DNA from: Comamonadaceae bacterium
GTDB taxonomy: Bacteria; Pseudomonadota; Gammaproteobacteria; Burkholderiales; Burkholderiaceae_C
Assembly (NCBI GenBank): GCA_030528485.1
Contig: JAUMYU010000018.1
Span: 1-36,926, forward strand
Direction: 5' to 3'
DNA length: 36,926 nt
Position numbers and translations under genes: made by a program
The notes under the pieces: model-generated
Seen by the model: the letters and a program-made list of their open reading frames with translations, nothing else
Databases searched by the model: none
Told to the model about the DNA's origin: nothing
Shown: one piece after another, positions 5,328-10,733 of the stretch
Position numbering within the stretch: position 1 is the first letter of the stretch
How the letters are laid out: every line of letters starts with the position of its first letter

Positions 5328-5936
5328 TCATTTCTGCCCGGCCAGCAGGGCATCGTCAATGGCATCGGCGCGCAGGCGGGCGGGGCGCTGGCTGTGCGCT
5401 TCTACAAAGGCGAGGAAGGCCGGGCGCGACTCCAGCAGTTGGAATTGCAGATACCAGCCCACGTAGGCGGATACCAGCAGGTCGGCTGCGGTGAAGGTAT
5501 CACCGGCCAGATGGGTTCGGTCTTTGAGGGCGGCTTGCAGGGTGTCGAGCACATCCTGCTCGGTGCCGAAACCGGCGTTTTCCGGCTTGGGCAAGGCGCC
5601 GGTCATTTTGGCGCTGATGAGCTGCTCCAGCGGCGCCATGAAGCTAATCCAGCGGTAATAGCTGCCGCGCTCAGGCGCGCCCACGGGCGGGGCGAGTTTT
5701 TTCTCGGGTACGAGGTCGGCCAGATACAGGCAAATCGCCGCCACTTCGGTGATGACGGTGTCGCCGTGCCGGATGGCGGGCACCTTGCCCATGGGGTTGA
5801 TGGCGCGGTATTCGGGCGCTTTCATGCTGCTGCCGTATTCCAGCAGCACGGTGTCGTAAGGCAGGCCGGTTTCTTCCAGCATCCAGCGCACGACGCGCCC
5901 GCGGGACATGGGGTGGGTGTAAAAGGCCAGAGGCAT
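5328..5936 (-). CDS. Glutathione S-transferase family protein
   Basis: The 202-residue protein has an N-terminal thioredoxin-like GST domain (FYTHPMSRGRVVRWMLEE, then the cis-proline segment MGKVPAI and the glutathione gamma-Glu site TEVAAICLYLAD) and an all-helical C-terminal domain with TAADLLVS. Ser11 in MSRGR sits where the catalytic Ser/Tyr is found in bacterial beta/theta-like classes. Such proteins conjugate glutathione to electrophiles or act as reductases; the substrate is unknown. The glutathione synthetase gene gshB lies at 19902. Start ATG at 5936 fits the family. It is divergent from the psi-like gene, and no partner gene is evident. Confidence 0.9.
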   Translation of the reverse strand: MPLAFYTHPMSRGRVVRWMLEETGLPYDTVLLEYGSSMKAPEYRAINPMGKVPAIRHGDTVITEVAAICLYLADLVPEKKLAPPVGAPERGSYYRWISFMAPLEQLISAKMTGALPKPENAGFGTEQDVLDTLQAALKDRTHLAGDTFTAADLLVSAYVGWYLQFQLLESRPAFLAFVEAHSQRPARLRADAIDDALLAGQK

Positions 5937-6038
5937 GGCGCGCTCCTGTTTGAGTAAAGGCGGCAGTGTGGCACAGGGCCTGTTTCTCGATGAGCGTCAT
6001 CAAACGCCCTGGCTGCATGGCCCTCAAGGCAATGTCTC

Positions 6039-6044
6039 TACAAT
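6039..6044 (+). promoter_or_regulatory. Candidate -10 box of the psi-like gene
   Basis: TACAAT in the context TCTC+TACAATCGGCGG lies 52 bases before the ATG at 6096. It is the best match to a consensus -10 in this interval; the -35 is poor. Confidence 0.4.
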
Positions 6045-6095
6045 CGGCGGCCTTTCTTGCCCTTCGCCAGCCTTGCGCCTTTCGTCTTTCGTCCC

Positions 6096-6917
6096 ATGCT
6101 TGCCTTGTCCCTGGATAGCCGCAGACTCGCCATGCTGAAGGCGATGGGGGCGGATGCGTGGTGGGTGAAGCCGCCTGCGGCCGTTGCAGGGCTTGCGGCA
6201 GCGCCTGAGGCCAAGCCAGCCACCGTGCAGGCCGCGGTGGCCTCGCCCGCAGTGGCCAGGCAAGCGCCGCCGCCGATGCAACCCCAGGCTTCGGAGCGCG
6301 CCCAGGCGCGGCCTTCGCCCGCCAAGCCCTTGCCGCCAGCGCCCAGCGCGCGTGCGGCGCATGCGCCAGCCTCGTCGCCCGCTGCTCGCCAGCGCGCCAG
6401 CGCACCGGCACCGGCCGTTGTGCCCGCTTTGGCGCCGCTGGGCCTGCTGGCCGCCAGCCCGTGGCTGCGCCCCGATGCGCTTGCGGCAGCGCCAGCCGCC
6501 TCGTCACCCTCTTATCTGCTGGTGGTGGACGATCTCCGCGCCCTGGGGCAAGAGCAGGAAACGGCCCGGCGCCTCTTGCACAACATGCTGCATGCCATGG
6601 GCCTGGCACAAAGCCCGGCGGTCTGGTGGAGTCAGGCGCGCCGCCTCGCTCAAGGGGAGCAGGCCACGCCCATTGAGGCGTTGCTCGGCCAGTGCCAGCC
6701 CCGGGTGCTGATTGCCTTGGGGCGCGATGCGGCCCAGGCGGTGCTGGGCGATGAGCGCCCGTTGGGCGTGCTGCGCCGCACGGAGCACCGCATGGCCCAT
6801 GCGCCTGCGGTGCCCGTGGTGGTGACGTACAGTCCAGCCTATTTGCTGCGCGCTGCACATGCCAAGCGTGGCGCGTGGGAGGATTTACAGCGCGCCCTGC
6901 AACTGGCAGCGGCGTGA
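6096..6917 (+). CDS. UDG-fold protein lacking active site; candidate DNA polymerase III psi subunit
   Basis: The 273-residue protein has three parts: a short N-terminal motif (residues 5-26, with SRR, MG and W22/W23 then KP), an Ala/Pro-rich linker to about residue 138, and a C-terminal domain resembling family 4 uracil-DNA glycosylase. Recognisable glycosylase echoes are RRLLHNMLHAMGL, PRVLIALGRDAAQAVLG and VVVTYSPAYLLR followed by AWEDL. Yet the motif A GEAPG region reads VVDDLRAL, the catalytic HPA is SPA, and the Fe-S cysteines are missing, so base excision is very unlikely. Compared from memory with E. coli HolD (psi), the shared order SRR...L..G...W..., LVMVANDLPAL-like, and SPAL..LRA......LW suggests a clamp-loader psi subunit, which bridges the clamp loader to chi. 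The alternative is simply a decayed glycosylase paralogue. tsaB and rimI, frequent neighbours of such genes, are absent. Confidence 0.5.
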   Translation: MLALSLDSRRLAMLKAMGADAWWVKPPAAVAGLAAAPEAKPATVQAAVASPAVARQAPPPMQPQASERAQARPSPAKPLPPAPSARAAHAPASSPAARQRASAPAPAVVPALAPLGLLAASPWLRPDALAAAPAASSPSYLLVVDDLRALGQEQETARRLLHNMLHAMGLAQSPAVWWSQARRLAQGEQATPIEALLGQCQPRVLIALGRDAAQAVLGDERPLGVLRRTEHRMAHAPAVPVVVTYSPAYLLRAAHAKRGAWEDLQRALQLAAA

Positions 6918-6961
6918 TTGCAACAAGGCAACTTTTGCCTACGGAAGAAAAGGAAGCATCC

Positions 6962-7249
6962 ATGCCTTACGGCTACATCGTCGCCAATATCGACACCACC
7001 GACGCGGAAAAAATGGCCGAATACCGCCAGTGGAGCGCCGCTGCTGTGCAGGCCCACGGCGCCGAGTTTCTGGTGCGCGGAGGCCAGCAGCAGGTGCTCG
7101 AAGGGCAGGCGTTTGCGCGCACGGTAGTCATCCGCTTTCCCGACTATGCAGCGGCGCGGCTGTTCTATGATTCACCACAGTATCGCAAGGCGCGTGAAAT
7201 TCGCGAGGGCGCGGGCGTTTTCAATGTGGTCTGCGTTGAGGGCCTGTAA
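6962..7249 (+). CDS. DUF1330 domain protein
   Basis: This is a 95-residue DUF1330 family member, a dimeric alpha/beta-barrel fold of the ferredoxin-like type. Visible family features are YGYIVANIDTTD at the start, the central GGQQQVLEG, VVIRFPDYAAARLFYDSPQY and a short final strand. Proteins of this fold include small monooxygenases and isomerases, but DUF1330 members have no agreed reaction. The ATG at 6962 is preceded by the ribosome-binding sequence GGAAG seven bases upstream. Inverted repeats at about 7258-7318 (CCTCAA/TTGAGG and GGCGGC/GCCGCC) separate it from eno and may act as a terminator, although no T-run follows. Confidence 0.88.
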   Translation: MPYGYIVANIDTTDAEKMAEYRQWSAAAVQAHGAEFLVRGGQQQVLEGQAFARTVVIRFPDYAAARLFYDSPQYRKAREIREGAGVFNVVCVEGL

Positions 7250-9927: not shown

Positions 9928-10329
9928 TCAGAGGTGCTCACGCAGAGCGTGGAAATCCTCAGCCAATACACGGCGCGTGAGGGCGAAGGGGCTGCCCATG
10001 CGGCGCCAGGCGCGCCAGGCGATCAACCCCGCCACGGCCATGACCGCCAGCCATGCACCCAGCACGGCAAGCCATGCGGCGCCCCATTGCGGGGTTTGCC
10101 AGTAGTGCAGCAACACGATCATGGAGCCGACGAAAAACGCGCCAAAGAAGAACAGCAGCAGCAAGGCGCAGGCTGCCAGCAGCAGCACGGCGGCTGATTT
10201 CTGCCGCTGCCATTCCAGCCGCGCCAGATCCAGCCGATCACCCACGGCCAGGCTGCCTTCGTCGAGCCATAGGCGCGCCGATTCGCGCAGGCGTTGCACG
10301 CCTAAAAGCGATTGCCAGTCCAGGGCCAT
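9928..10329 (-). CDS. Phage holin family (YqjE-like) membrane protein
   Basis: The 133-residue protein has an N-terminal amphipathic region (LARLEWQRQKSAAV) and two strong membrane helices (about residues 46-73 and 83-105), followed by a basic patch WRAWRRMGSPF and a C-terminal helix. This is the layout of the YqjE/holin superfamily III (PF07332-like) proteins found beside DUF883 proteins in proteobacteria. The phage-holin name reflects fold similarity; nothing here suggests a prophage. It sits 50 bases after the DUF883 gene and is probably co-transcribed with it. Its TGA stop directly touches a family II repeat. Confidence 0.8.
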   Translation of the reverse strand: MALDWQSLLGVQRLRESARLWLDEGSLAVGDRLDLARLEWQRQKSAAVLLLAACALLLLFFFGAFFVGSMIVLLHYWQTPQWGAAWLAVLGAWLAVMAVAGLIAWRAWRRMGSPFALTRRVLAEDFHALREHL

Positions 10330-10379
10330 GCGGGGTGTTTTCCTATGTGTGCGTTGTGGCGGAGGGGCTGGCGAGCCAA

Positions 10380-10682
10380 TCAGCGGCGGGCCAACAAAAA
10401 GCCCAGGACGACGCCTGCGGCAGCGGCGATGCCAGCGGTTTGCCAGGGCGATTCGTGCACGTAGCGATCAGCCACTTCAGCATGTTCGCGGGCGCGGCTG
10501 GCGGTTTCGCGGGCGGCGCGCGTTGCGGCGTCGCGGAAGTCCTCTACGCCGTTTTCAAAGCGTTGGCGCAATTGGCGGATTTGGGGGACTTCATCCAGAT
10601 CGCGGCTGGCAAGCGCCTCGCGCAGATCGTCCACCAGTTTTTCAAAATCGCGCGCTTGGGGCTTGCTGGAAAAAAGGCTCAT
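10380..10682 (-). CDS. DUF883 family (ElaB/YqjD-like) membrane-anchored protein
   Basis: The 100-residue protein has a long charged helical region (residues 10-70) and a single C-terminal membrane anchor TAGIAAAAGVVLGFLLARR, the signature ending of ElaB/YqjD/DUF883 proteins. In E. coli these C-tail-anchored proteins bind 70S/100S ribosomes at the inner membrane in stationary phase. The start ATG at 10682 is preceded by AAGGAG eight bases upstream. It is the first gene of a minus-strand trio (10682 to 9313). Regulation by stationary-phase signals is known in E. coli but cannot be read here. Confidence 0.85.
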   Translation of the reverse strand: MSLFSSKPQARDFEKLVDDLREALASRDLDEVPQIRQLRQRFENGVEDFRDAATRAARETASRAREHAEVADRYVHESPWQTAGIAAAAGVVLGFLLARR

Positions 10683-10733
10683 GTCAAAGCTCCTTCAGGG
10701 TGAGTCCCGCCAGAGCGGCGGTGTGAAAAGAAC

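Follow-up and report, generated by a model that had tools for sequence, protein, structure and literature searches.

The open reading frame at 6096..6917 of the window (the whole stretch of 36,926 nucleotides analyzed here) is most probably the gene for the DNA polymerase III psi subunit (HolD function) in this comamonad, as an unrecognized and very divergent branch, a reading that we place at a probability of roughly 0.8. By these profiles, the N-terminal tail and the C-terminal core of the protein are both related to psi, and the core is also related to family-4 uracil-DNA glycosylases (UDG4s). The initial annotation had proposed psi from comparisons made by eye; that finding was right and, if anything, understated.

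The features of the gene, and the segments referred to below, are as follows.

6096..6917, plus strand: coding sequence of a psi-like protein with a degenerate UDG4 core, 273 aa plus stop (ATG at 6096, stop at 6915-6917)
6096..6173, plus strand: N-terminal tail, residues 1-26 (LDSRRLAMLKAMGADAWWVKP), candidate peptide for binding the DnaX collar of the clamp loader, from the match of window-family tail profiles to HolD tails
6174..6509, plus strand: Ala/Pro-rich linker, residues 27-138, 57% Ala+Pro
6510..6914, plus strand: core, residues 139-273, apparently UDG4-derived and psi-like, candidate chi-binding domain (PF03167; HolD-core profile match)
6516..6545, plus strand: LLVVDDLRAL strand, residues 141-150, in the place of GE(A/G)PG in UDG4 and of the first core strand in HolD
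6696..6722, plus strand: QPRVLIALG, residues 201-209, strand common to UDG4 and HolD in the alignment
6831..6839, plus strand: SPA, residues 246-248, replacing the catalytic HPA of UDG4 in the alignment with UDG4 relatives
6864..6884, plus strand: C-terminal motif K257-x3-W261-x-D263, its K and W also invariant in 12 HolDs

The frame is a real gene under purifying selection, because dN is far below dS in pairs from the same genus: 0.017 vs 0.144 for the gene in comparison with the sister species (L002), and 0.058 vs 0.249 for the core in the pair L004-L005. In the latter pair the linker drifts faster than the core (dN 0.191, dS 0.419), and it is the fastest-evolving part in the pair L001-L003 as well; its composition bears out the Ala/Pro linker assigned to residues 27-138 in the initial annotation. 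The ATG at 6096 is the start used in relatives, and an in-frame TTG at 6057 is likewise open. Within the tail lie SRR (8-10), MG (17-18), W22-W23, and KP (25-26), and M1, R9, L14, G18, and W22 are invariant among 23 window-family tails. G209 is invariant across 32 aligned sequences and aligns with lG of HolD. The gene is preceded by a glutathione-transferase-like gene on the minus strand and followed by a short ORF that had no NCBIfam match and then enolase. An antisense open frame of 430 aa (5671-6963, minus strand) spans the whole gene and is probably a high-GC shadow, and a 216-aa ORF at 10053-10703 on the plus strand had no NCBIfam match at E ≤ 1e-5.

The core and its glycosylase relatives

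The UDG superfamily model (PF03167) matched residues 157-265 with 39.5 bits, above the Pfam gathering score of 24.3, in agreement with the glycosylase-like C-terminal scaffold that had been claimed, and the C-terminal half of the window-family profile aligned with the UDG 1ui0_A at E 4.5e-8. Scores for NCBIfam UDG family 4 (TIGR00758) and UdgX (TIGR03914) were 40.1 and 31.6 bits, below the cut-offs of 125.3 and 189.95, respectively. A phmmer search of the PDB with the window protein returned no psi; its best match was an unrelated one to the linker (E 0.098), and UDG-type chains appeared at E of at least 0.53.

Compared with its UDG4 relatives, the window protein lacks GE(A/G)PG, the His of HPA, and all four Fe-S cysteines, C200 being its sole cysteine. 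The losses read from the single sequence (GEAPG, the catalytic His with SPA for HPA, and the Fe-S cysteines) are therefore visible in the alignment, and intact glycosylase residues were likewise absent elsewhere in the fold. It is highly improbable that the protein is an active family-4 uracil-DNA glycosylase that has merely diverged: the superfamily match does exceed the Pfam gathering score, but GE.PG, HP, and C..C were found at these positions in none of the 15 aligned degenerate-type orthologs (the window protein and 14 others), so that the active-site and Fe-S residues are missing in 15/15, and most of the named loci described below lack the corresponding patterns. Judged by its sequence, the window protein is a psi-like, divergent branch and no longer a family-4 UDG.

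Searching with the window protein gave matches in 54 of 60 related genomes. Among the best 30 relative frames, with the window counted, 17 were degenerate and 13 intact, the latter keeping GE(A/G)PG, HPA, and the C..C pair, with Ser for the third Cys in L027; the window and the nine further genomes of its genus all belong to the degenerate kind. The tail was present in both kinds, the exceptions being L014, which lies at a contig start, and L025, in which the tail is not in frame; both are left out of the 15-sequence window-family alignment. In a set of 79 named loci, biased toward the degenerate kind by the choice of the degenerate family as query, 67 were without GE.P(G/N) and C..C.L, 6 were mixed, and 6 were intact; the genera represented included Acidovorax, Comamonas, Curvibacter, Polaromonas, Diaphorobacter, Lampropedia, and Vandammella. 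The nearest named genome was that of Allofranklinella schreckenbergeri, at 97% identity, in a search from which records very close to the window were possibly excluded.

Profile comparisons with psi

A PF03603 (DNA_III_psi) search of 274 genomes of the class provided the psi set. Its 18 matches comprised 12 short proteins, five matches in the N-terminal tail of UDG4-type proteins (four of them over the Pfam cut-off), and one weak, stop-broken sequence. We regard the 12 short proteins as psi (HolD) because all of them match PF03603 (12/12) and their profile finds the E. coli psi chains 8giy_F and 3sxu_B in the PDB at about 1e-16; the peptide 3gli_O followed at 0.0027. The window protein itself scored 14.1 bits with PF03603, below the Pfam threshold of 22.2. 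When the 15 window orthologs were scanned against the Pfam library, DNA_III_psi was the second commonest family (7/15 at E ≤ 1, best 0.0065).

Comparison of the cores with hhalign matched the 12 HolDs to the 15 window orthologs with a probability of 97.0 and a score of 71.3, the best of 60 column shuffles reaching 15.0. The HolD core matched the class UDG4 cores at similar strength (probability 97.3, score 73.4, best shuffle 20.0) and the 13 UDG4s of the relatives search at a probability of 95.8 and a score of 57.9 (best shuffle 16.2), while an unrelated RimI profile, used as a control, scored 9.9, with a maximum of 16.2 in 20 shuffles. Both the HolD and the UDG families thus match by profile, in keeping with the glycosylase-derived psi first proposed, and the pairings of LLVVDDLRAL and SPA..LLRA....AW with HolD segments, originally made by eye, were recovered in the alignment of HolDs with orthologs. 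When the HolD set was cut to its six strongest members, the probability of the core match dropped to 37 for the window family (score 31.2, shuffles ≤17.4) and stood at 91 for the class UDG4s; the match thus depends in good part on HolDs of intermediate type (L039 and L040, for example), in which (F/H)HPSHL...SDKRHAWEALKR is retained. From the HolD side, the Pfam library scan found PF03167 in 2/12 proteins (best 0.0016), and the NCBIfam scan found UDG family 4 in 3/12 (best 0.0039), the sole non-psi family in more than one HolD.

The tails alone were also matched: window-family tails aligned with HolD tails at a probability of 95.0 and a score of 33.3, compared with 10.4 for the best of 60 column shuffles and a maximum of 18.0 in 40 rounds of a looser shuffle, which reproduces the tail pairing made by eye. 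A tail model built from the 12 HolDs matched 9/15 window-family members and, at E<0.01, 30/30 of the best class UDG4s (10.6 to 36.3 bits), where the best of 1240 shuffled sequences reached 7.3 bits. At 3.9 bits (E 0.14), the tail of the window protein itself was not above those best shuffled sequences. The proposed psi identity accordingly holds at the level of family profiles, in that both tail and core exceeded 60/60 shuffles, and less clearly for the single sequence, which misses the Pfam threshold and has a weak tail of its own.

UDG4s were chosen by the catalytic-domain model only, which matched 222/274 class genomes, 195 of them over the cut-off; L051-L080 and L193-L212 are the basis for what is said here of UDG4 tails, whereas L044, L046, L047, and L048 came from the psi model. 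In the 30 best class UDG4s, GE.PG, HPA, and three of the four cysteines were invariant, and the fourth was at least 90% conserved. For 20 further UDG4s, mostly lower in the list and including five from genomes without a chi match, the tail was found at E<0.01 in 15, at 0.01 in one, and above that in four (best of 400 shuffled sequences, 3.4 bits). The rule that the tail occurs only with chi was considered and fails, the tail being at E<0.01 in four of the five chi-negative UDG4 genomes and at 0.01 in one; chi may be undetected in those five, or lost to incomplete assemblies. The Pfam scan of the 30 class UDG4s again gave DNA_III_psi as the second commonest family (13/30 at E ≤ 1, best 0.00038), with three tails cut off. 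The tailed class UDG4 profile meets 1ui0_A only from profile position 61 onward, so this solved enzyme has no counterpart of the tail.

Against 177,635 PDB sequences, a profile of the 30 tails had the psi peptide 3gli_O as its top match (E 0.015), followed by psi 9oyg_J (0.021), nucleoside deoxyribosyltransferase chains (0.06), and full-length psi (0.33 and 0.45); psi is ranked first, yet the E-values are modest. 3GLI is a clamp loader with a bound psi N-terminal peptide (PMC13213242). A tail profile of the 15 window-family members and eight same-family UDG4s found no psi in the PDB, and a full-length class UDG4 profile, with the tails of L051, L071, and L080 mostly or wholly cut off, found UDGs and no psi. 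It could be argued from the single-sequence searches, in which the window protein is a UDG-superfamily member with a weak tail, that it resembles UdgX or a UDG, has lost catalysis, and acts apart from the clamp loader, for instance in DNA or uracil binding, and that its tail resembles psi by chance or convergence. We consider this quite unlikely, given that tail and core each match HolD, that the class UDG4 tails rank a clamp-loader-bound psi peptide first, and that the rimI neighborhood described below is held in common.

Several tail variants were noted. The UDG4 of genome G176 (L203) has two consecutive tail-like copies in its N-terminal region, YFAQMGIDIWL and YSHLALMGIQVWQ. Four intact UDG4s from Acidithiobacillus (L125, L126, L128, and L131) begin with a tail-like EQRQFLQLL(R/G)(L/M)PVPG that is without the Trp and was missed by the tail model. 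In L044, L045, and L048, which are UDG4-type and tailed, the active-site motifs are altered (GEMPN, GEAPN) and may represent steps of decay; Ung was also present in the genomes of L044 and L045. A phylum-level UDG4 sample held 30 loci, six of which were dropped by a frame filter. Within it, 16 loci from another class of the phylum (L083-L109 minus L084, L085, L088, L095, L098-L100, L102, L103, L105, and L108) share the N-terminal motif YLR(E/Q/R)IGV, which scored 18.4 against HolD tails, with shuffles to 11.5; this match, weak but above shuffles, is suggestive. Five other UDG4s of the phylum, of the LL.FY.EAGVD type with an (A/I)GVD motif, which we take to be alphaproteobacterial, scored 7.6 against HolD tails and were indistinguishable from shuffles (to 8.7).

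A separate HolD had been named at the outset as what would speak against psi. The Pfam model detected none in the window's own genome (80.5% complete), where the PF03603 search gave nothing at E ≤ 10 and neither a second HolD nor a second UDG4 was seen, nor in G283, a genome of the same family in one contig and 100% complete.

Distribution of UDG4, Ung and chi, and the rimI locus

In the class sample of 274 genomes, for which counts and Fisher p-values are uncorrected for phylogeny, strong UDG4 was present in 0/12 short-HolD genomes vs 195/274 overall (p 1.7e-7, kinship ignored). Ung was detected in 16/195 strong-UDG4 genomes vs 62/79 others (p 1.4e-30, kinship ignored): 16 genomes had both, 179 had UDG4 only, 62 Ung only, and 17 neither. 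Family-1 Ung and strong family-4 UDG are thus largely mutually exclusive in this sample. Ung was present in 9/12 short-HolD genomes and, among the relatives, in 16/17 degenerate-form genomes; for the intact form it was found in 8/8 genomes of the same family (two below the Ung cut-off) and 0/5 outside it.

Chi was identified in the window's own genome (PF04364, 3.8e-31), in 60/60 relatives, and in 183/195 strong-UDG4 genomes of the class sample, but in only 6/12 short-HolD genomes. For the other short-HolD genomes (G096, G161, G194, G278, G307, and G330), the missing chi match (E ≤ 0.001) may reflect loss, divergence, or a missed gene. Another 45 genomes have chi without a detected short HolD or strong UDG4, and some of these, like the window's, hold the degenerate form, which the class-sample models miss or score low.

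These distributions bear on whether the window protein might be the remnant of a replisome-tethered UDG rather than psi, with a tail that docks on DnaX, a core that does not bind chi, and chi reaching the loader directly or through another protein. In favor of such a remnant, functional precedent is clearest for the tail, UDG4s with tails are also present in genomes where chi was not detected, and direct binding of chi to tau is given as an option where psi is missing in a 2012 review (PMC3290774). However, the core matches the HolD core and is under selection, and no short-HolD genome of the class sample has a strong UDG4 (0/12), so that we judge such a remnant unlikely and favor psi.

The rimI gene was located by running on the locus flanks a RimI model trained on 16 pattern-selected flanking genes; in an NCBIfam check of flanking genes, 10/10 were over the rimI cut-off. 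It lies directly downstream of 10/12 HolDs and 26/30 class UDG4s; through much of the class sample, the place of holD is taken by tailed UDG4s with active-site motifs. It lies directly upstream of 27/30 genes found in the relatives search, among them L003-L010 from the window's genus, the three exceptions being L002 and L014, both at contig starts, and the window gene. For the 79 named loci, rimI was directly upstream in 51 and placed otherwise in 14; in the remaining 14, many of which are cut by contig ends, it was not found. In the window's own genome rimI is on a different contig, and the two genes have therefore separated.

Proposed role, origin and comparison with known systems

In E. coli, domain III of the three tau/gamma subunits is contacted by the N-terminus of psi; psi also binds chi, which in turn attaches to the C-terminus of SSB (PMC3290774, PMC3197488). 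Extra ssb is reported to rescue the slow growth of E. coli holD mutants (PMC4199511). By analogy with E. coli psi, whose N-terminal peptide docks in this way, the tail of the window protein would bind the DnaX collar of the clamp loader, and the dead UDG fold would bind chi. With chi bound to the SSB C-terminus, the protein would link the clamp loader to SSB-coated DNA, the flexible-looking linker giving it reach.

The ancestor of these proteins may have been an active UDG4 beside rimI that already bore the tail. Where family-1 Ung was present, catalysis would have been free to be lost, giving rise to the comamonad protein here and to short HolD elsewhere; we infer this course of decay from the Ung and UDG4 genome counts. 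More broadly, it seems likely that psi as such originated as a family-4 uracil-DNA glycosylase and that many Gammaproteobacteria (in the wide sense, including Burkholderiales) keep a motif-intact, tail-docked UDG4 as their psi, wiring uracil removal into the replisome, with the E. coli-type HolD and the comamonad protein as two decayed forms, mostly alongside Ung. E. coli psi, too, probably descended from a uracil-removing repair enzyme with a clamp-loader tail. The arrangement may be wider still, as hinted by a similar tail (YLREIGV.TP) carried by UDG4s from another class of the phylum.

A published puzzle is that chi occurs in alpha-, beta-, and gammaproteobacteria, while its partner psi is seen only in gammaproteobacteria (PMC3290774), and in several genomes psi could not be found although chi seems to retain its psi-binding site (PMC3197488). 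The statement in the initial annotation that psi is not routinely annotated in Burkholderiales agrees with the former, the 2012 review. A search of mainly freely accessible literature, some of it covered in part, found no link of psi/HolD, chi/HolC, the clamp loader, or rimI to uracil-DNA glycosylase, and no paper on a clamp-loader psi subunit in Betaproteobacteria. The window protein is thus a concrete candidate for the missing psi that would account for its divergence and proposes an ancestor for HolD. A further prediction is that many proteins matched by the UDG family-4 model beside rimI would be subunits of the clamp loader, so that a coupling of uracil repair to replication in bacteria can be put to a direct test.

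Among known systems, the window protein resembles UdgX (TIGR03914) only in a weak match within the UDG superfamily, far below the cut-off. With family-4 UDGs (TIGR00758; 1UI0, 4ZBX) it shares the superfamily, and its nearest intact relatives share the tail and the rimI neighborhood, but it is without the catalytic and Fe-S residues and scores far under the family cut-off. With HolD (PF03603; 1EM8, 3SXU, 3GLI) it has in common the tail and core by profile, the C-terminal K...W, rimI in relatives, and chi in the genome; it differs in being twice the length of E. coli psi, in its 112-residue linker, in being more clearly UDG-like, and in lying away from rimI. The psi of Pseudomonas aeruginosa was recognized through an HHpred match to E. 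coli psi, in an account (PMC3197488) whose text does not contain the word glycosylase. As described there, that protein is roughly double E. coli psi in size and has a disordered N-terminal part before the psi core, features in which the window protein is alike.
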